Assembly (NCBI GenBank): GCA_027063745.1
Contig: JAMORG010000025.1
Location: forward strand, 1-47,258
Origin: Sulfurimonas sp.
GTDB taxonomy: Bacteria; Campylobacterota; Campylobacteria; Campylobacterales; Sulfurimonadaceae
Reading direction: 5' to 3'
Length of the DNA: 47,258 nt
Under the pieces are notes generated by a model. The model did not search any database. It had not been told where the DNA came from and saw only the letters and a program-made list of their open reading frames with translations. This document shows, piece after piece, positions 25,844-47,258 of the stretch (the stretch's first letter is position 1; every line of letters starts with the position of its first letter). A program made the position numbers and the translations under genes.

Positions 25844-27115
25844 ATGGACTACTTACACATTAAAGGCTCATCGAAATTAAAAGGCAGCATCGAGATATCA
25901 GGTGCTAAAAATGCTTCTTTACCACTTATTGCTATGAGTATCTTGGCAAAAAACACTGTAATCATTAAAAACCTTCCCTCAGTTGCAGATATCAAAACAC
26001 TTTTAAAACTTTTAACAAACCTTGGTGCAAAATGCAACTTTGAAGACGAGCATGTAGCGGTTGATACAAGTTCCATCAATGAAACAAAAGCAACCTATGA
26101 CATTGTAAAAACAATGCGTGCTTCTATTTTGGTACTTGGACCATTACTTACTCGTTTTGGGCACTGTGAGGTCTCACTCCCTGGCGGGTGCGCTATTGGT
26201 CAGCGCCCAATTGACTTGCACTTAAAAGCACTTGAACAGATGGGTGCAGAGATTGATATTCGTGCTGGCTATATTGAAGCACGTGCTCCTCAAGGACTGC
26301 ATGGCTGTGAGATCATCTTTGACAAGATTACAGTTACCGGAACTGCAAACATTGTCATGGCTGCAGCTTTGGCACATGGTGAGACAAGCATTATAAATGC
26401 AGCACGTGAACCTGAAGTCGTTCAACTGTGTGAAGTACTTGCAAACAGTGGCGTAGAGATTGAAGGTATAGGAACTGCCGTTTTGAAGATAAAAGGAAGT
26501 GATGGAAAACTTTTAGAGATAGATGAGTTCGAGATCATTCCAGACAGAATAGAAGCCGGAACATATCTCTGTGCCGGTGCTATTACCAACTCTGAACTGA
26601 CTATTAACAAAGCAGAACCAAAACACTTAGACTCGGTACTTGCGAAACTTGAAGAGATGGGCTTTTGTCTTACCATAGAAGACAAAAGTATAACCATTCA
26701 CCCTATTGACAAGCCGATAAAACCGGTAAAAATAGTAACACAGGAGTATCCTGCATTTCCGACAGATATGCAAGCACAGTTTATGGCACTTGCAACGCAA
26801 GCTGAGGGTGTCTCTATCATAGAAGAGCGTTTGTTTGAAAACCGTTTTATGCATGTAAGTGAACTCCAACGCATGGGAGCAGATATCTCTCTCAATGGCC
26901 ATACTGCAACGATTAACGGTAAAAGCAAACTCACCGGTGCAGATGTTATGGCAACAGACTTGCGTGCTTCAAGTGCACTTGTTTTAGCAGCGCTTATCGC
27001 CGAAGGGGAAACTGATATTCATCGTATCTATCACTTAGATCGTGGGTATGATGCTTTGGAGAAGAAGTTAAAAGCAGTAGGCGCTCAGGTTGAACGCCTC
27101 AAAGAGAAGGCCTAG
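25844..27115 (+). CDS. murA: UDP-N-acetylglucosamine 1-carboxyvinyltransferase
   Basis: First committed step of peptidoglycan synthesis in the cytoplasm: transfers enolpyruvate from phosphoenolpyruvate to UDP-GlcNAc. The 423-residue protein has Lys22-Asn23 in [10 protein letters not shown], the catalytic Cys116 in [11 protein letters not shown] (the fosfomycin target; Asp here would give resistance, so the enzyme has the sensitive form), and [12 protein letters not shown] near residue 367. Length is typical. Its TAG overlaps the stop of the convergent hspR by 4 bp (CTAG). Confidence 0.97.
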
Positions 27116-27489
27116 TCGCCTTCAAAGATTATCATCTCATAGAGACTGTTTTTTGTAACAAGTGCTTTGTCACGTGAGACAGAGCGGGCATTTTTCGCAG
27201 CTTCAACCTCTTGACGAAGTTCAGCTATCTCTTTTTCCATCTTATCAACTGTCTCTTTCATACGTAAAATGATATCAACACCTGCTAGATTCACACCTAG
27301 CTCACGTGTAAGACGTAAAATCAACTTAATCTTATCAATATCACGCTGTGAATACAAACGGATACGTCCGTTTGAGCGGGATGGTGTAATTAGATTCTCA
27401 CGCTCATACTGACGTAAAGTCTGTGGGTGAATATCAAGAATTTTCGAAACTATACTGATTAAGTATACTGGTTCATCATAGTGGTGCAT
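27112..27489 (-). CDS. hspR: heat-shock repressor HspR (MerR family)
   Basis: Represses chaperone operons by binding HAIR operators. The 125-residue protein has a MerR-type winged helix-turn-helix ([26 protein letters not shown]), then [15 protein letters not shown], and a C-terminal coiled coil (about 75-105). ATG 27489 has AAGGAG 5 bases upstream; an in-frame GTG at 27495 is inside that region. It follows cbpA closely, the known cbpA-hspR arrangement of Helicobacter and Campylobacter, so it should regulate its own operon. HAIR-like sites are visible upstream of cbpA and grpE. Confidence 0.93.
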
Positions 27490-27498
27490 ATTCACTCC

Positions 27499-28434
27499 TT
27501 ATATTGTTTTTGGTAACTTCTCTTTCATCATCTCAACTAACTCACTGTCGAGATCCTCAACTTTAGGGTTGACAATGTTTACTTTGAGATATAAGTCACC
27601 ACGTTGTTTTGTTTTTCTATTCATCGCTCCCATACCTTTAACACGGAAACGCTGACCGTTTTTCGTATTTTGCGGGATTTTGAGTTTTATCTCTTTCTCT
27701 AGCGTCTGTACAGCAATTTTGTCACCAAAGAGAGCTGCATAGAGAGGAATATCTATAGTTTTAACCAGGTCATCCCCTTCTCTCTCATACTCTGGAGACG
27801 GTGCAACTGTGATTTTTAAAAGCAAGTCACCTTTACGACCGTTTTGCGCATGTCCTTTTCCTCTGACACGCAGCTTCTCCCCTGTTTTTACACCGGCAGG
27901 AATCTTAATGTCAAAACGCTCTCCATTAACGGAAACAGAGTGTGTTCCACCTAAAATAGCTACGCTAAATGGAATTGTAACATTTGCTTCAATGTCAAGA
28001 TTTGGCTCTTGATGGAAACCTCCACCAGCTCCGCCAAAGCCACCAAAACCACCGTCAAATCCACCACCAGATGAATATGTTCTGCGACTTCCGCCAGCTC
28101 CCCCTTGGCTAAATCCACCAGAGAAGCCGCCTCCGCCACCGAACATCTGACGAAGGATCTCATCAAGGTCAACATTTGCTCCTTGACTTTGAGAGAAGTC
28201 ATGGAAGTTTTGACCACCAAACATCGCATCACCATACATATCATACTGCTCTTTTTTCTCTTTGTCACTGAGAATCTCATAAGCAGCATTAATCTCTTTG
28301 AATTTCTCTTCACAGTTAGACTCTTTACAGATATCCGGGTGATACTTTCTTGCTAATTTTCTATACGCTTTTTTAATCTCCGATTCACTTGCATTTGGAG
28401 ATACTTCAAGTGTTTCATATAATGATTTACTCAT
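27499..28434 (-). CDS. cbpA: DnaJ-family co-chaperone CbpA
   Basis: A 311-residue class II J-domain protein that stimulates DnaK ATPase. J domain at residues 4-68 with the HPD motif at 32-34; a long Gly/Phe-rich linker (about 88-140) with Ser and Gln; two C-terminal beta-sandwich substrate-binding domains starting near [17 protein letters not shown] and [18 protein letters not shown]. The zinc-finger cysteines of true DnaJ are absent. It is first in the cbpA-hspR operon, behind a promoter overlapped by a HAIR-like operator, so it should be heat-induced. Confidence 0.93.
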
Positions 28435-28489: not shown

Positions 28490-28519
28490 ATTATATCATA
28501 TAACTTGAGCCAATGTCAA
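28490..28519 (-). promoter_or_regulatory. promoter of cbpA-hspR
   Basis: On the minus strand a perfect -35 TTGACA (28519-28514) and a perfect -10 TATAAT (28495-28490) are separated by 18 bases. The predicted transcript starts near 28482, giving a leader of about 48 bases. Confidence 0.75.
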
Positions 28520-28524
28520 TCAAC
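28504..28524. promoter_or_regulatory. HAIR-like HspR operator at cbpA
   Basis: CTTGAGC-N7-AATCAAC matches CTTGAGT-N7-ACTCAAG at 11 of 14 positions with the exact 7-base gap and lies over the -35 and spacer of the cbpA promoter. Two further TTGAG half-sites follow at 28525 and 28538. Confidence 0.65.
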
Positions 28525-28640
28525 TTGAGACAAAAATTGAGTTAAAGTGACGCAAGGTTGAAAATAAACAAGAAACAAGAGGATATAAATAAAAATTAAA
28601 AAAAGAAAATCTAGAGATGAAGATAAAATAAAGACTAAAG

Positions 28641-36255: not shown

Positions 36256-36316
36256 TATGAAATAATTAAAGATGTGTAACACTTTTATTTTATATTTTAA
36301 CAAAAAGAGAGCTAAA

Positions 36317-37117
36317 ATGACTGAAGCAATACTCAAAAAAATCAAACAACTTCCACCACTGCCAGAATCTGCCATGCAGATAGAAGCGGTTTATCAAGAT
36401 CCGAATTCTACCTTTAACGATATGGTAAAAATCTTAGAAAAAGACCCCCTTTTAACAGCAGATATCCTCAAGGCTGCAAACTCTCCACTCTATGGTTTCT
36501 CACGTGAGATTACAGCTATTTCTCAAGCAGTAGGTCTTTTTGGAATGGGAACGGTTCGTGGCTTTGCTCTTGCAAGTATTGTCAAAAAAAGCTTTAACCT
36601 TGACCTCTCACCTTACGGTATCACTGATGAAATGTTCTCAGAACTCTCAAAAAAACAAAATGCACTCGTTACATCATGGTGCCTACGCAAAGAGAACAGA
36701 CTCATGGGTGTTCTCTCCCCTGCAGCCTTTTTGGTCGAGATTGGAAAAGTACTTATCGCTCAACAAATAATGGCTGATAATAAAGAAGCAGAGTTTCGTG
36801 ATGCACTAGCAGAGTTACAAGATGTTGAAGCAGCGGAAAAAGAGATCGTTGGTGTAGATACACCGGAAGTAAGTGCAACAATCTTTGAACAATGGAAATT
36901 TGAAGAGAACCTTGTTGATGTTATCCGTAACGCTCAAGAGCCGCAAAATGCAGCAGATGAAGATAAAAAAGCTGCGCAAATTCTAAAAGTAGTACGCGTT
37001 GCAGTACCAATAAATGGGAAAGTTACACCAGAGAGTGTTGAGGCGGCCAAAGCTCTTATAGAAGAGTATGATCTTGACATGGAAAGCTTTGACAAGGCTA
37101 TAGAGGCATTTTTATAA
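36317..37117 (+). CDS. HDOD-domain signalling protein
   Basis: A 266-residue protein with an HDOD domain, residues about 8-200: IKQLPPLPESAMQIEAVYQDP, DMVKILEKDPLLTADILKAANSP-type segment near 40-62, and the following helices. HDOD proteins act in signalling and stress or cell-cycle control and usually lack the catalytic HD residues. ATG 36317 is chosen because AAAGAGAG lies just upstream; an ORF extension to 36272 passes through an AT-rich leader. The stop is directly followed by the TTG start of rnr. Confidence 0.85.
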   Translation: MTEAILKKIKQLPPLPESAMQIEAVYQDPNSTFNDMVKILEKDPLLTADILKAANSPLYGFSREITAISQAVGLFGMGTVRGFALASIVKKSFNLDLSPYGITDEMFSELSKKQNALVTSWCLRKENRLMGVLSPAAFLVEIGKVLIAQQIMADNKEAEFRDALAELQDVEAAEKEIVGVDTPEVSATIFEQWKFEENLVDVIRNAQEPQNAADEDKKAAQILKVVRVAVPINGKVTPESVEAAKALIEEYDLDMESFDKAIEAFL

Positions 37118-39058
37118 TTGAAAAGCATTAAATCTCTACTCATCAAGCTCACGCATGGCGTGAGCCAACAAGATCTCTCTCCCGAAGAAATTACATCTGT
37201 TAAAGAGTGGCTGGCACAAGGCTATCTCACGCAAGAAGACAATCGCTATAAATTCAACTCGAAATATCGTGCCGGTACACTTGGACTTGTGCAAAAAGGT
37301 ACTGCATATCTTCATGTCATAGGAGAGAATGTCAAAGACCTCTATATCGAAGAGGTCGGTAATGCAACTGAAGGTGATCTCATTATTGCAAAACGGCTGC
37401 TTGGCAAGCGTGGTACACCAAGTGCAAAAATTGCTGAGATTGTAGGGCGTGAAGTCAGTTTTTCAGTTGCTTATATTATTGAAAAAGAGGGGAAAAAATC
37501 TCTTGTTGACCTTAAAACCGACTACCCAATCGGAGCAGAGCTCACGCAAGAGGAGTTAGTTAAGCATTCACTTGGAGACCTCTTTAAGATTGATAATCAA
37601 GAAAACACCATTATGGAATATCTTGGTAATCTCAAAGATCCAAAAGTAGATGAAAGAATAGTTCTTGCACAGTTTAACAAACATGATGAGTTTGAAGAGG
37701 ATGTTTTGGAGATTGCCAAATCATTTCCTCTTGTAGATGCAAAAAAATACCCAAAAAGAAAAGACCTGCGTGAGCTTGATTTTTGTACTATTGACCCTGT
37801 AACTGCAAAAGACTTTGATGATGCAATCTACTGGGATGAAAAAAATACAACTCTCTATGTAGCAATAGCTGATGTAAGTGAGTATGTTACTCCCTTTGGT
37901 GCGCTTGACAATGAAGCGATTTACAGAAGCTTTTCTATCTACCTGCCACACCGTTCTATTCCTATGCTGCCACGCCAGTTAAGTGAAACACTCTGTTCAC
38001 TGCAACCTCATGTTGACAGACTTGCTTATGTTTTTGAGATGAAACTTGATCTGAACAAACTTGAGGTTGTTCACTCTGATGTCTATGAAGCCCTGATTCA
38101 TTCAAAAAGACGTTTTAACTATGAAGAGATAGATGCTTTTTTTGAAGGAAAGCTCAAAGCACAAAACAGTGATGAAGCACGAATTCTCTCTATGCTTACA
38201 AAATTGCAAAAGGTCACTGATGCCTTAAGAAAAGAGCGTCTAAAAGTCGGTTTTGATTTTCACTCTACCGAGATAGAGATGCAACTTGATGAGCAGACAA
38301 ATCTTGTAGCAACCACAGTGGCAGAAGAGACACCTTCACATGCACTTATTGAAGACTGTATGCTCTTAGCCAACAAAGAGGCAGCTTCAAGATATGAGCG
38401 TGGTATCTTTAGGATTCACGAACCGCCAAGTCAAAGCAAGCTACAAAGCCTCTATCAGGAGCTCTCTGCAATTGGTATCAATGTAGAGATAAAAAGCACT
38501 ATTCGTGAGACTATTGTAAACATTCAAGCACAGGCACGTGAGATGGGTCTTGAGAGTGAAGTTGATACACTTATCATCCGTGCACAGATGCAAGCGCGCT
38601 ATGCACCGCTTAACTCCGGACACTTTGGTCTTGGTTTTGATGCATACACACACTTCACTTCACCTATTCGTCGCTACTCTGACCTTATCGTGCACAGGTT
38701 GCTTAAAGCAATTGCAAAAAATGACAAAGAAGAGGGCTCTTATGTTTTAAGAAACATTGAGACTTTAACAATGACCATCAGTGAAAAAGAGCGTGAAGCA
38801 AGCACTATTGAGATGGACTATAAAGCAAGAAAATATGCACGCTGGGCAGAATCACAACTTGGAAATGAATTTAAAGCAAAAATAACTGCAACAGATCCTG
38901 AACTTCGAGCAGATCTCAATGATGAGATCGTCGGTGCACGTCTTTATATAACAAACAATGAAGATGTCGTTCTTTTTGAAAATGTACGTGTAAAAATAGA
39001 GCGTGTTGATTTAGCTCGTGCTAAAATCTATGCTGCTATCGTAGGAAAAGCTGACTAA
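37118..39058 (+). CDS. rnr: ribonuclease R (RNB-family 3'-5' exoribonuclease)
   Basis: Processive 3'-5' exoribonuclease that degrades structured RNA. The 646-residue protein is shorter than the 813 of E. coli, as is common in this phylum. An N-terminal region with cold-shock-like strands is followed by the RNB catalytic domain from about residue 215, with IDPVTAKDFDDAIYWDE carrying the metal-binding Asp residues, then YTHFTSPIRRYSDLIVHR near 510, and a C-terminal S1-like part. Start TTG 37118, immediately after the HDOD stop. Four dispersed motif copies lie in the first 660 bases, two as an inverted pair. It overlaps holA by one base. Confidence 0.93.
   Translation: MKSIKSLLIKLTHGVSQQDLSPEEITSVKEWLAQGYLTQEDNRYKFNSKYRAGTLGLVQKGTAYLHVIGENVKDLYIEEVGNATEGDLIIAKRLLGKRGTPSAKIAEIVGREVSFSVAYIIEKEGKKSLVDLKTDYPIGAELTQEELVKHSLGDLFKIDNQENTIMEYLGNLKDPKVDERIVLAQFNKHDEFEEDVLEIAKSFPLVDAKKYPKRKDLRELDFCTIDPVTAKDFDDAIYWDEKNTTLYVAIADVSEYVTPFGALDNEAIYRSFSIYLPHRSIPMLPRQLSETLCSLQPHVDRLAYVFEMKLDLNKLEVVHSDVYEALIHSKRRFNYEEIDAFFEGKLKAQNSDEARILSMLTKLQKVTDALRKERLKVGFDFHSTEIEMQLDEQTNLVATTVAEETPSHALIEDCMLLANKEAASRYERGIFRIHEPPSQSKLQSLYQELSAIGINVEIKSTIRETIVNIQAQAREMGLESEVDTLIIRAQMQARYAPLNSGHFGLGFDAYTHFTSPIRRYSDLIVHRLLKAIAKNDKEEGSYVLRNIETLTMTISEKEREASTIEMDYKARKYARWAESQLGNEFKAKITATDPELRADLNDEIVGARLYITNNEDVVLFENVRVKIERVDLARAKIYAAIVGKAD
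37147..37165. repeat. inverted pair of the dispersed motif in the start of rnr
   Basis: GCTCACGCATGGCGTGAGC is an 8-bp perfect inverted repeat with a 3-base loop, spanning codons 10-16 of rnr. It could fold in DNA or in the rnr mRNA. Confidence 0.75.
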
Positions 39059-43903: not shown

Positions 43904-45925
43904 TTAGAAAAGTCCTTTTAAAAGATTGCCAACATCTTTTGAAAGATGTTTTTGCAGCTCTTTTGTAACTGCTTTACTAGCCTCTTTTTTCAAAAGATCT
44001 TTTGCATCTATGCTGATTTTTGGTTTGTTGATATCACCTTTGAGCTTGATTGTAAGAGGGTGTTTATTTGCAACAATAGCAATTACTGAATCAATATACT
44101 GTTTTTTAGAATCTATATATGTATTTTTTGTAACGATTGAAGATGTGTTTGAACGAAGATCAAGTGATGCTAAAATTTTCTCTTTGTTGATTTTTGCACT
44201 TACATCACCGCCAAAACGTTGTTTATAAAGATCAATCTTAGCATACTGTTTTGTAAGATCAAGCACTGCATTTCTGGTAAACAGACCATCTGTAATCTTA
44301 CCGACAAAGTTACCCTGTGAAGCTGCTAGATTATAATCCAGTGTAGCTGTGATGTTTGACTTGAGTACTTTTGGATAGATAAGCATATCTAAGATATCCA
44401 ATGTCTGCAATCCTTTTAAATCTGCATGAAGATCATCATTATGCAGTTTTGCATCAACTGCACCCTGAGCAATATTTGAGTGCATTGTAATATCAAGATC
44501 TTTTGCTTTTACAATATCTCCATTGGCTTCAAAACTTCCCTTTAAGTGTCTCTCTGTTGCAAAATAGAGCTTATCAAGGTCTGGTACTTTTACTCTGTAA
44601 TCACTTTTAAGAGATGCATCTTTAAGATTGAACTTTGCACTTTGTATATATAGATTAGCAAGAGTTGATGCTAGTGTGAGCTGTGTATCTGCTATATTAT
44701 TTTTAATATGTGTTGTTGTATCACTTGCAAATGTTGTTTTTGGCATACGAGATTTAAACTTATACTCTTTTGTTATAAATTTTGAATCAAGTACTCCTTG
44801 ACGAATTTTTGTTGTTACCACACCCTTGAGATGTTTTGGATCTGCATTGGTAATATCAGCATGCATGTCAAAGTTACCATCAGCATAGTGTGGCTGTTTT
44901 ATCATATAGAGTAGTTTTTGAAGCTTAAGCCCTTTAATGTCAAGCTGTACTGTTTTTGGCGCAAAGTCAGCTAAATTGGCAACAAATGTAGTCTTTGATG
45001 CAGCTATATCACTTTTTCCATCAACAACAAGTTTTGCTTTGTTCCCTTTTACTGTACCATTTAGATGAAGTGGGCCACGGACATCTGCATTGGTCAGAGG
45101 TTTAAGCACAGCCAACTCTTTTACATCTACACCATAGACTAAATCAAGCGCCAAAGGTTCTGGTTTTACATTACCGCTTGATGTGATTTTTGCAAGGTTA
45201 GAGAGAAGTGTGTATTTATAATCAATATCATCACCTTTGAGTTTTGCATCTAAGTTCATAGAGAAGTCCGTCTTTGGAATAGTGATGTTAAAATCTTTTT
45301 TCATAACAGCAGTGTTAAGCTTTCCATCTTTTGTCACTAAAAGTACATCACCATCAAGATTATGTGCAGCAATCGAATTGAAATTCAAATCAAGATTGAC
45401 TTTTGCACTGGCATACTCTTTTTGTTGTAACATATGCAACAGTGCCGGCAGATCCAAGTTTTCAACTTTAGCAATAATTTTAGAAGGGTTGAACTCTTTT
45501 AGTGTTACAGAGTAGTTAGTGTTACTTTTTGCAACATCACTGCTCCCTTTTACATCCAAAAGCGTACTATCCCCCTTTATAGTCCCCTCAGTCATAAAAC
45601 TATCTTGCAGCTCCATTGATGTCAATGGTTTGAGCGTTTTAAGCTCTTTAAGATCTACCTTATACTTTAGGTTGAGTGCTTGTGAAAAAGGAGAGTATTC
45701 TCCTTTTAGAGCTACTGTATTGTTTTTATTTAAAACAAGTAAGATATCGATATGGCTCATACTCAGTGAAAAACGCTCCAAAGTGCTTGGGAGCTTTGTC
45801 TGTTCTTGTATCTTCGCCTCGACAATAGGCTTGATAAGTCCATTTCCAAATGAAGTAAACGCTACAACATAAACAGCTCCAACAAGAGCTATAACAAGTC
45901 CTAAGAACCAATATATATATTTCAT
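43904..45925 (-). CDS. AsmA/TamB-like inner-membrane-anchored protein with internal repeats
   Basis: A 673-residue protein with one N-terminal membrane segment (4-24) and a long periplasmic beta-rich region. Three similar blocks can be seen, each starting with a strand like LxLxYxVDxKELxxLKPL (near 70, 240 and 400), followed by LNGTVKG/EGTIKG-type strands, a segment ending in LPALLHMLQQKEYA or LQKLLYMIKQPHYA, and a D-rich turn. This is the repeated beta-groove design of AsmA-like proteins, which move lipids between membranes. The C-terminus has KGDINKPKISIDAKDLLKK. Not a recognised named member. It is convergent with comF (3-bp gap). Confidence 0.72.
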   Translation of the reverse strand: MKYIYWFLGLVIALVGAVYVVAFTSFGNGLIKPIVEAKIQEQTKLPSTLERFSLSMSHIDILLVLNKNNTVALKGEYSPFSQALNLKYKVDLKELKTLKPLTSMELQDSFMTEGTIKGDSTLLDVKGSSDVAKSNTNYSVTLKEFNPSKIIAKVENLDLPALLHMLQQKEYASAKVNLDLNFNSIAAHNLDGDVLLVTKDGKLNTAVMKKDFNITIPKTDFSMNLDAKLKGDDIDYKYTLLSNLAKITSSGNVKPEPLALDLVYGVDVKELAVLKPLTNADVRGPLHLNGTVKGNKAKLVVDGKSDIAASKTTFVANLADFAPKTVQLDIKGLKLQKLLYMIKQPHYADGNFDMHADITNADPKHLKGVVTTKIRQGVLDSKFITKEYKFKSRMPKTTFASDTTTHIKNNIADTQLTLASTLANLYIQSAKFNLKDASLKSDYRVKVPDLDKLYFATERHLKGSFEANGDIVKAKDLDITMHSNIAQGAVDAKLHNDDLHADLKGLQTLDILDMLIYPKVLKSNITATLDYNLAASQGNFVGKITDGLFTRNAVLDLTKQYAKIDLYKQRFGGDVSAKINKEKILASLDLRSNTSSIVTKNTYIDSKKQYIDSVIAIVANKHPLTIKLKGDINKPKISIDAKDLLKKEASKAVTKELQKHLSKDVGNLLKGLF

Positions 45926-46052
45926 CTCTCAATACTCCAAAAAATAGTTATATAATGATACTATATATTAGAGTGTTTTTAGTAACAAAAGAAGAGTTTT
46001 ATAGTTGATATTGATAGACTCAAGTTAATTTACTAAAAATATTCAATTATTA

Positions 46053-46073
46053 CTTGACATTGTTGCACTCAAT
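46053..46073. promoter_or_regulatory. HAIR-like HspR operator at grpE
   Basis: CTTGACA-N7-ACTCAAT matches CTTGAGT-N7-ACTCAAG at 11 of 14 positions with the exact gap and overlaps the -35 of the grpE promoter. A separate perfect ACTCAAG half-site lies upstream at 46018-46024. Confidence 0.7.
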
Positions 46074-46082
46074 GTGTATAAT
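46054..46082 (+). promoter_or_regulatory. promoter of grpE-dnaK
   Basis: TTGACA (46054-46059), 17-base spacer, TATAAT (46077-46082): a full-consensus housekeeping promoter. The leader to the ATG at 46120 carries AAAAAAGGAGA. Confidence 0.85.
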
Positions 46083-46119
46083 ATGCTTAACTTTTTAAAA
46101 AAGGAGATTTTTAACAATT

Positions 46120-46662
46120 ATGGCAAATGAAAAAAATAATGAAAATATAGAAAATGAAGAGAATATAGATTCCCAAGAGAGAGAGGCTCAATCACAAGAG
46201 CCTCAAAATGAACTAGAAGTGTTAGAACAAGAGCTTAATGAGTGTAAAGACAAATATGCTCGCGTTCACGCAGATTTTGATAACATCAAAAAAAGATTAG
46301 AGCGTGAAAAATACACAGCAGTTGAATATGCAAACGAAAAATTTGCAAAAGATATGATTCCTGTAGTAGATTCACTCCAGATGGCACTCAAGTCTGCTGA
46401 GGCAGATGCACCGGCTGAAGAGTTGATTGAAAAACTAAAAGAGGGAATCGAACTGACTCTTAAACAGTTTATGACTGCTTTAGAGAAACATGGAGTAACA
46501 AGGGTATCTCACGATGAACCGTTTGATCCAAACATTCACAATGCAGTACAAAGCGTTGATCATCCAGAGATAGAAAGTGGTCAAATCGTTGAGACTTTCC
46601 AAACTGGATACAAATATAAAGAGAGACCATTGCGTGAGGCGATGGTTGTAGTTGCAAATTAA
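46120..46662 (+). CDS. grpE: nucleotide exchange factor GrpE
   Basis: Releases ADP from DnaK. The 180-residue protein has an acidic disordered N-terminus (Asn/Glu-rich, residues 1-35), a long coiled coil with ADFDNIKKRLEREKYTAVEYAN and the C-terminal beta wing with HNAVQSVDHPE and TGYKYKERPLREAMVVVAN. It is first of the grpE-dnaK operon; hrcA, often upstream in relatives, is absent and replaced by an AsmA-like gene on the other strand. Control is therefore likely through HspR at the HAIR-like site. Confidence 0.95.
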   Translation: MANEKNNENIENEENIDSQEREAQSQEPQNELEVLEQELNECKDKYARVHADFDNIKKRLEREKYTAVEYANEKFAKDMIPVVDSLQMALKSAEADAPAEELIEKLKEGIELTLKQFMTALEKHGVTRVSHDEPFDPNIHNAVQSVDHPEIESGQIVETFQTGYKYKERPLREAMVVVAN

Positions 46663-46773: not shown

Positions 46774-47258
46774 ATGAGTAAAGTAATAGGTATAGATTTA
46801 GGAACAACAAACTCTTGTGTAGCAGTTTATGAAGGCGGGGAAGCAAAAGTTATCCCTAATGCAGAAGGTAAAAACACTACTCCATCGGTAGTAGCATTTA
46901 CTGATAAAGGTGAAGTTCTTGTAGGAGATCCTGCAAAACGTCAAGCTATCACAAACCCTGAGAGAACTATCTCTTCTGTTAAGAGAATCATGGGTCTGAT
47001 GATGAATGAAGAGAACGCTAAAATCGCTCAAGAAAAAGTTACATATAAAATTGTAGACAAAGATGGTATGGCAGCTGTTGATGTTGCTGGTAAAGTATAT
47101 ACACCACAAGAAATTTCAGCGAAAATTCTTGCAAAACTAAAAGAAGACTCTGAAGCATATCTTGGTGAAAAAGTTACAGACGCTGTAATTACAGTACCTG
47201 CATACTTCAATGACAGCCAAAGAAAGGCAACAAAAGATGCAGGTACAATCGCAGGTCT
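46774..47258 (+). CDS. dnaK: molecular chaperone DnaK, N-terminal part (cut by right edge)
   Basis: The first 161 residues of Hsp70: [13 protein letters not shown] phosphate loop at 6-18, [20 protein letters not shown], and [22 protein letters not shown] near 140-161. The gene runs off the window. AAAGGAAGTTAAA precedes the ATG. It is second in the operon after grpE; its J-domain partner CbpA is encoded at 28 kb under the same predicted HspR control. Confidence 0.97.

Follow-up and report, generated by a model that had tools for sequence, protein, structure and literature searches.

A grpE-dnaK promoter with a candidate tandem HspR operator in a Sulfurimonas bacterium in which no HrcA/CIRCE arm was found

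Results

Two HAIR-like operators on the grpE-dnaK promoter

The grpE-dnaK promoter of this Sulfurimonas genome carries two HAIR-like inverted repeats, O1 and O2, and comparison with related genomes suggests, with a probability of about 0.84, that they form a tandem HspR operator—one through which the promoter would be repressed by HspR and released by heat, in a bacterium without the HrcA/CIRCE arm. The window, meaning the whole stretch of DNA analysed (47,258 bp), is all of contig 25 of a 1.6-Mb genome that is 82% complete and divided among 131 contigs. The promoter and its genes lie at its right-hand end:

46004..46024, + strand: O2, HAIR-like operator GTTGATA-N7-ACTCAAG, 11/14, at about -85 to -65 from the inferred start
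46053..46073, + strand: O1, HAIR-like operator CTTGACA-N7-ACTCAAT, 11/14, at about -36 to -16 from the inferred start
46054..46059, + strand: -35 hexamer TTGACA, read from the sequence
46077..46082, + strand: -10 hexamer TATAAT, separated from the -35 by 17 bp, read from the sequence
46102..46106, + strand: AGGAG, likely ribosome-binding site of grpE, from the sequence
46120..46662, + strand: grpE, 180 aa (NCBIfam NF010747, 182.7 bits, cut-off 176)
46774..47258, + strand: dnaK, 5' part, ending at the contig edge (an open reading frame named from its sequence)

The consulted part of PMC7464140 gives CTTGAGT-N7-ACTCAAG as the HAIR consensus, and sites were scored out of 14 against it. Both operators have exact 7-nt spacing between their arms, and they stand 49 bp apart, start to start, with a joint span of 70 bp (about -85 to -16). 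The left arm of O1 contains the -35 hexamer. A preliminary description of this DNA had reported a full-consensus TTGACA-N17-TATAAT promoter, which can be read directly at 46054-46082 (a 12/12 match), overlapped by an 11/14 HAIR-like operator with exact spacing, which is equally present at 46053-46073. It had also noted ACTCAAG at 46018-46024 as a further half-site; the motif is there, but it is the right arm of the complete O2 rather than a mere half-site. The observation of operators in the grpE promoter is thus confirmed, though it had been understated.

Perfect TTGACA/TATAAT promoters with a spacer of 15-19 bp occur three times in the window, at 46054 (+), 28519 (-), and 37089 (+), and two of the three are the HspR-type promoters of grpE-dnaK and cbpA-hspR. 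The third, TTGACA-N18-TATAAT at 37089 (+), falls at the extreme end of an open reading frame (36272-37117) and just 5' of the next (37118-39058). An Rfam scan of the window gave no match.

Taken singly, neither O1 nor O2 is remarkable, because the counts of such sites in the window are near or below chance: a loose HAIR pattern (at most three mismatches) matched 25 times against 42 expected, and sites of at least 10/14 numbered 18 against 25.5 in simulated windows. Sites of at least 11/14 numbered 8 against 3.6 simulated (sd 1.8), but not one of 100 simulated windows held two of these at a distance of 48-50 bp. Across the whole genome, a strict HAIR pattern was found in 19 places, versus 5 for the reversed pattern, with none on the contig of the window, and was set aside as unhelpful. 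The counts of single sites in the window, together with the coincidence of the O1 left arm with TTGACA, speak for a simpler account in which O1 is merely a strong sigma-70 promoter with a chance ACTCAAT in its spacer and O2 is likewise due to chance. What decides in favour of the operator pair is its conservation across 38 genomes.

Conservation of both operators across Sulfurimonadaceae

We compared the grpE promoters of 38 Sulfurimonadaceae genomes—the genome itself, 24 of the same genus, and 13 of other genera—all of which have grpE. The named loci closest to that of the window belong to Sulfurimonas, with GrpE identity of up to 88%. O1 was kept in 38/38. O2, at a weighted site score of at least 11.7, was found in 36/38, at an offset of -49 from O1 in 32 and of -50 in 4, and fell below this threshold in the remaining two. 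Averaged over the family, the site score for offsets from -75 to -21 peaked at -49 with 11.63, the next highest value being 8.27 (mean 5.66, sd 1.41); the weights were chosen after the family sites were known, so that these weighted scores are descriptive. In shuffled versions of the family upstream regions, the median probability of a site as good as O2 was 0.000, and 0.5 for the worst promoter.

Conservation was concentrated in the arms of the repeats. Information per column in O1 was 1.86 bits in the arms and 0.94 in the spacer; for O2 it was 1.50 in the arms, 0.69 in the spacer, and 0.81 in the flanks. The conservation of O1 must partly reflect sigma-70 constraint, because its left arm doubles as the -35. 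Its right arm, on the other hand, falls between the -35 and the -10, in a spacer for which sigma-70 makes no sequence demand, yet reads RCTCA in 37/38 family promoters while the adjoining N7 drifts, and O2 lies outside the core promoter altogether but at a fixed distance in 36/38. A strong sigma-70 promoter decorated by chance is thus a very improbable account of the pair.

Absence of detectable HrcA and CIRCE from the family

The preliminary description held that hrcA is missing before grpE, and reading the upstream region agrees: no hrcA lies upstream of grpE in the window. With profile A1, built from 22 hrcA genes adjoining grpE, HrcA was detected in 218/348 genomes of the order and in 0/38 family genomes, including the genome itself (82% complete). 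For eleven of the 38, a single contig is listed; the HrcA and HspR counts for the family cover these 38, with 29 further family genomes (G348-G376) outside them. CIRCE gave a parallel result, the pattern occurring in 191/348 order genomes but in only 2/38 family genomes versus 1/38 for a reversed-pattern control, and nowhere in the genome itself. No CIRCE-like repeat of at least 13/18 was present at +25 to +45 from O1 in any of the 38 family grpE promoters, and at 30 family groES promoters the best match to CIRCE was 12/18. Searching the full genome for hrcA and CIRCE had been suggested as a check: neither was found in this 82% complete genome, HrcA was found in 0/38 family genomes, and the combination of a perfect CIRCE with an hrcA elsewhere was seen neither in the genome itself nor in the 38-genome HrcA search.

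These results bear on whether a dual HspR-HrcA circuit of the Helicobacter/Campylobacter type might be present, with hrcA and CIRCE hidden in the missing part of the genome. An assembly of 131 contigs at 82% completeness leaves room for this; however, the lack of HrcA throughout the 38 family genomes, 11 of them single-contig, the empty +25 to +45 interval in every family grpE promoter, and the near absence of the CIRCE pattern from the family argue so consistently against it that we give a hidden dual circuit hardly any credence, marginally less than the chance origin of the operators considered above. Loss of the HrcA/CIRCE arm remains our preferred reading.

The choice of search model matters here. 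An open reading frame of about 258-292 codons lies directly 5' of grpE at one or more loci in 15/21 other families sampled, and six such frames tested against NCBIfam all matched the HrcA model NF003033, two above its 248-bit cut-off and four below. The Pfam HrcA model matched none of these six. PF01628 was accordingly rejected as a test for hrcA, as 0/348 order genomes exceeded its cut-off though HrcA-family genes exist there, and its null result in the genome itself was discarded because the model misses HrcA genes present in the order. Two weak PF01628 matches (L006 and L007) were likewise rejected as HrcA, since their translations read as SecD-like and DHH-like proteins. Claims of hrcA absence in Campylobacterota that are based on Pfam are, by the same token, unsafe.

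In family f8, one grpE locus (L073, genome G007) has a CIRCE-like repeat of 17/18 upstream of grpE, and this 96% complete genome gave no match either to A1 or to the HspR of the window. In genus g19 of family f14, nine genomes (G013, G031, G046, G111, G123, G133, G298, G322, and G328) had HrcA matches in 0/9 and at least one CIRCE-pattern match in 9/9; this could reflect an HrcA that has diverged or moved, or sites that persist as relics.

HspR and the other promoters with HAIR-like sites

The predicted repressor is encoded in the same window, behind an operator of the same type:

27112..27495, - strand: hspR, MerR-family heat-shock repressor, 127 aa (NF047375 HeatShock_HspR, 117.3 bits, cut-off 105)
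27499..28434, - strand: cbpA/dnaJ-type co-chaperone gene directly upstream of hspR (DnaJ-type matches, all under curated cut-offs)
28490-28495, - strand: -10 hexamer TATAAT of the cbpA-hspR promoter, part of a perfect TTGACA-N18-TATAAT
28504..28524, - strand: HAIR-like operator GTTGATTGACATTGGCTCAAG of the cbpA-hspR promoter, enclosing the -35
28514-28519, - strand: -35 hexamer of the cbpA-hspR promoter
28536..28556, - strand: extra upstream HAIR-like site of the cbpA-hspR promoter, CTTGCGT-N7-ACTCAAT, 12/14

This hspR is the sole MerR_1 match in the genome (82% complete), and HspR was detected in 38/38 family and 324/348 order genomes. In Streptomyces, hspR sits in the dnaK operon; here, by contrast, it belongs to a separate cbpA-hspR unit. 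The hspR gene (-) converges with a gene that reads as murA on inspection (25844-27115, +), the two overlapping by 4 bp at 27112-27115. Because hspR adjoins this murA-like gene, the unit here is cbpA-hspR without rarA; in H. pylori, according to the consulted part of PMC6102357, the unit includes rarA.

Like HAIR sites mark the cbpA-hspR promoters of the family, most of its groES promoters, and clpB of the genome itself. A site of at least 11/14 lies within 150 bp upstream of every one of the 30 cbpA genes examined in the family, and in these 30 promoters the operator is mostly of the CTTGATTGAC type, around the -35. The extra site at 28536-28556 lies 32 bp from the conserved cbpA-hspR operator; at 12/14 it contrasts with the second-best cbpA sites of the 29 other family promoters listed, which reach 10/14 at most. 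For groES, detected in 40/46 family genomes (a draw only partly overlapping the 38), a site of at least 9/14 was read by eye beside the -35 in 27/30 promoters examined, the other three (L150, L153, and L157) having no clear HAIR there. A groES match was not obtained in the genome itself at its 82% completeness. Its clpB has CTTGACA-N7-GCTCAAT over the -35, the gene being identified by TIGR03346 with 596 bits on the N-terminal part (the whole-protein cut-off of 1232 was not reached). A genome-wide search with STTGA-N9-RCTMAA returned 27 matches versus 16 for a backward control, and the five of these that lie outside open reading frames of at least 100 aa are O1, O2, the cbpA-hspR site, the clpB site, and L246, a match of no clear meaning.

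This set of sites also bears on the identity of the factor at O2. HspR might act together with another repressor or activator, O2 being a site for that factor, or for the divergent gene (43904-45925), instead of for HspR: O2 does lie in the gap between two genes that diverge, with 79 bp separating it from the 45925 start, and a weak 9/12 promoter-like match faces the divergent gene. Yet O2 and the cbpA-hspR operator are inverted repeats of one kind, and in other families (L066, L067, L068, L081, and L089) a site at -48/-49 occurs without any long upstream reverse-strand open reading frame. We consider such an additional factor unlikely, and HspR the probable occupant of both operators.

Distribution of the operators in families with and without HrcA

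To place the family in the order, we scored 149 grpE promoters, 83 HrcA-less and 66 HrcA-bearing. Six loci with no recognisable -35/-10 were dropped (L190, L087, L200, L225, L226, and L227; four are from HrcA-bearing members of f14), L073 was retained despite its short upstream sequence, and six further fetched grpE loci (L048, L050, L056, L078, L082, and L098) stood outside the scoring. O1 was present in 78/83 HrcA-less and 61/66 HrcA-bearing promoters; because HrcA-bearing families carry it too, O1 is characteristic of the order in general rather than a consequence of HrcA loss. In those families it is mostly accompanied by a CIRCE 34-35 bp downstream, and a CIRCE of at least 13/18 at +25 to +45 from O1 was found in 57/66 HrcA-bearing versus 1/83 HrcA-less promoters. 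The upstream site showed the opposite distribution, the best site (at least 11.7) falling at -48 to -50 in 59/83 HrcA-less and 2/66 HrcA-bearing promoters. Elsewhere, it lay at -27/-28 (f20), -49 to -52 (f10 and f11), -60/-61 (f21 and f22), -46 (f16), -35 (f13), or -26 (two promoters of f6), or was absent. In f20, the hrcA promoters (L055, L058, and L207-L212) show a second HAIR-like site at -27/-28 from O1 in 8/11, about 21 bp, or two helical turns, nearer O1 than in Sulfurimonadaceae.

A set of 33 named Campylobacterota loci gave a similar picture, although it shares some genomes with the 149 promoters and the two are thus not independent. These loci were taken from 80, leaving out other phyla and L294 (Epsilonproteobacteria, no upstream sequence). 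All 18 loci without HrcA in a roughly 4-kb locus have O2 at -48 to -50, whereas among the 15 with HrcA, one of which (L290) has no measurable O1, the best upstream site of at least 11.7 fell at -48 to -50 in none.

On a DnaK tree of 87 rows, retrieved by tblastn with the dnaK fragment of the window and labelled from the locus only for named rows and from the genome search for the others, accounting for the HrcA label takes 8 changes, of which starred branches force 5 or more, with gain and loss not distinguished. Repeated loss of hrcA is the simpler reading, because hrcA heads the operon in most families sampled. For the association of O2 with HrcA loss, the starred branches provide only 4 phylogenetically independent pairs, and exceptions run in both directions: the HrcA-less f23 and f14 are without O2, and some promoters of f11 and f10 combine HrcA with an O2 near -50. 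The idea that O2 is an adaptive answer to HrcA loss was therefore not adopted, the counts being suggestive and the 4 pairs neither proving nor refuting a link. Helical phasing of the O2 spacings (28, 49, and 60-61 bp) was also set aside; at 10.5 bp per turn, it gave p = 0.010 over 11 families and 0.143 over distinct spacings.

Discussion

A proposed one-repressor heat-shock circuit

The preliminary description had proposed that grpE-dnaK is controlled by HspR alone or mainly, and the comparison supports this well, with hspR in 38/38 family genomes, HrcA in 0/38, and the CIRCE pattern in 2/38 against 1/38 for the control. From this arrangement, we infer that HspR binds, that O1 and O2 cooperate, and that the promoter is repressed and then released by heat. 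In unstressed cells, HspR would sit on O1, at the -35, and on O2, 49 bp farther upstream, so that about 70 bp would be covered and RNA polymerase would be barred from a sigma-70 promoter that matches the full consensus and is presumably strong. Inactivation or titration of HspR by heat or misfolded protein would free the grpE-dnaK promoter, along with cbpA-hspR, groES, and clpB; hspR (27112-27495) would itself be among the released genes, standing as it does behind an HspR-type operator. In other species, HspR senses heat by titration by chaperones or by intrinsic sensing. More tentatively, and with rather less than an even chance of being right, lineages without HrcA/CIRCE might have two HspR units clamped over the 49-bp tandem, cooperation between HspR and HspR replacing that between HspR and HrcA in Campylobacter; if so, several Campylobacterota lineages would form a natural series of repressor-network simplification.

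The proposed arrangement predicts a one-repressor heat-shock circuit in Sulfurimonadaceae whose parts are common to the two-repressor circuit of Campylobacter and Helicobacter, and the order offers natural lineages with and without HrcA for asking what a second repressor adds.

Comparison with known systems

Parts of this picture are already in print. The accessible part of PMC10490939, a study that includes Sulfurimonas genomes, describes HrcA as absent in acidophiles of Epsilonproteobacteria, so that HrcA absence in the group has been partly reported, and a vent metagenome study, as far as its available text goes, discusses hrcA and hspR of Nautiliales and not Sulfurimonas promoters. Among the part of the open-licence literature matches that was listed, no description was found of the paired operators, the fixed distance between them, or the corresponding loss of CIRCE.

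One close likeness is to C. jejuni, for which we draw on the consulted sections of PMC7464140. There, HspR protects -16 to -111 of the hrcA-grpE-dnaK promoter, which contains several HAIR-like sites; the present promoter likewise has more than one, and O1 (-36 to -16) and O2 (-85 to -65) both fall within that footprint span. The Sulfurimonas grpE promoter thus looks like the C. jejuni layout minus its HrcA part: in C. jejuni, hrcA heads the operon, and HrcA also acts on a CIRCE-like repeat, covering the start site of the promoter, whereas here there is no hrcA at the head and the repeat is absent. The layouts also differ in how the sites are placed relative to the core promoter: the HspR sites of C. 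jejuni grpE-dnaK are described as lying upstream of it, and O1 overlaps the -35. Such overlap is reported in C. jejuni for the cbpA and clpB promoters, which are controlled by HspR only, and not for grpE-dnaK (PMC7464140). At the C. jejuni groE promoter, HspR is recruited to weaker sites nearby by a HAIR of high affinity (PMC7464140).

In H. pylori, the consulted part of PMC6102357 describes HspR covering about 70 bp, the same span as O1 plus O2, but from one central HAIR with no further copies, whereas HAIR-like sites here stand at both ends of the 70 bp; H. pylori, moreover, has a parallel HrcA arm, and none was found here. The dnaK operon of Streptomyces, as cited in the consulted parts of PMC6102357 and PMC7464140, is likewise under HspR and multiple inverted repeats, three there rather than the two seen here. 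Set beside these systems, the proposed control by HspR alone amounts to a variation on the HspR/HrcA circuit already known.
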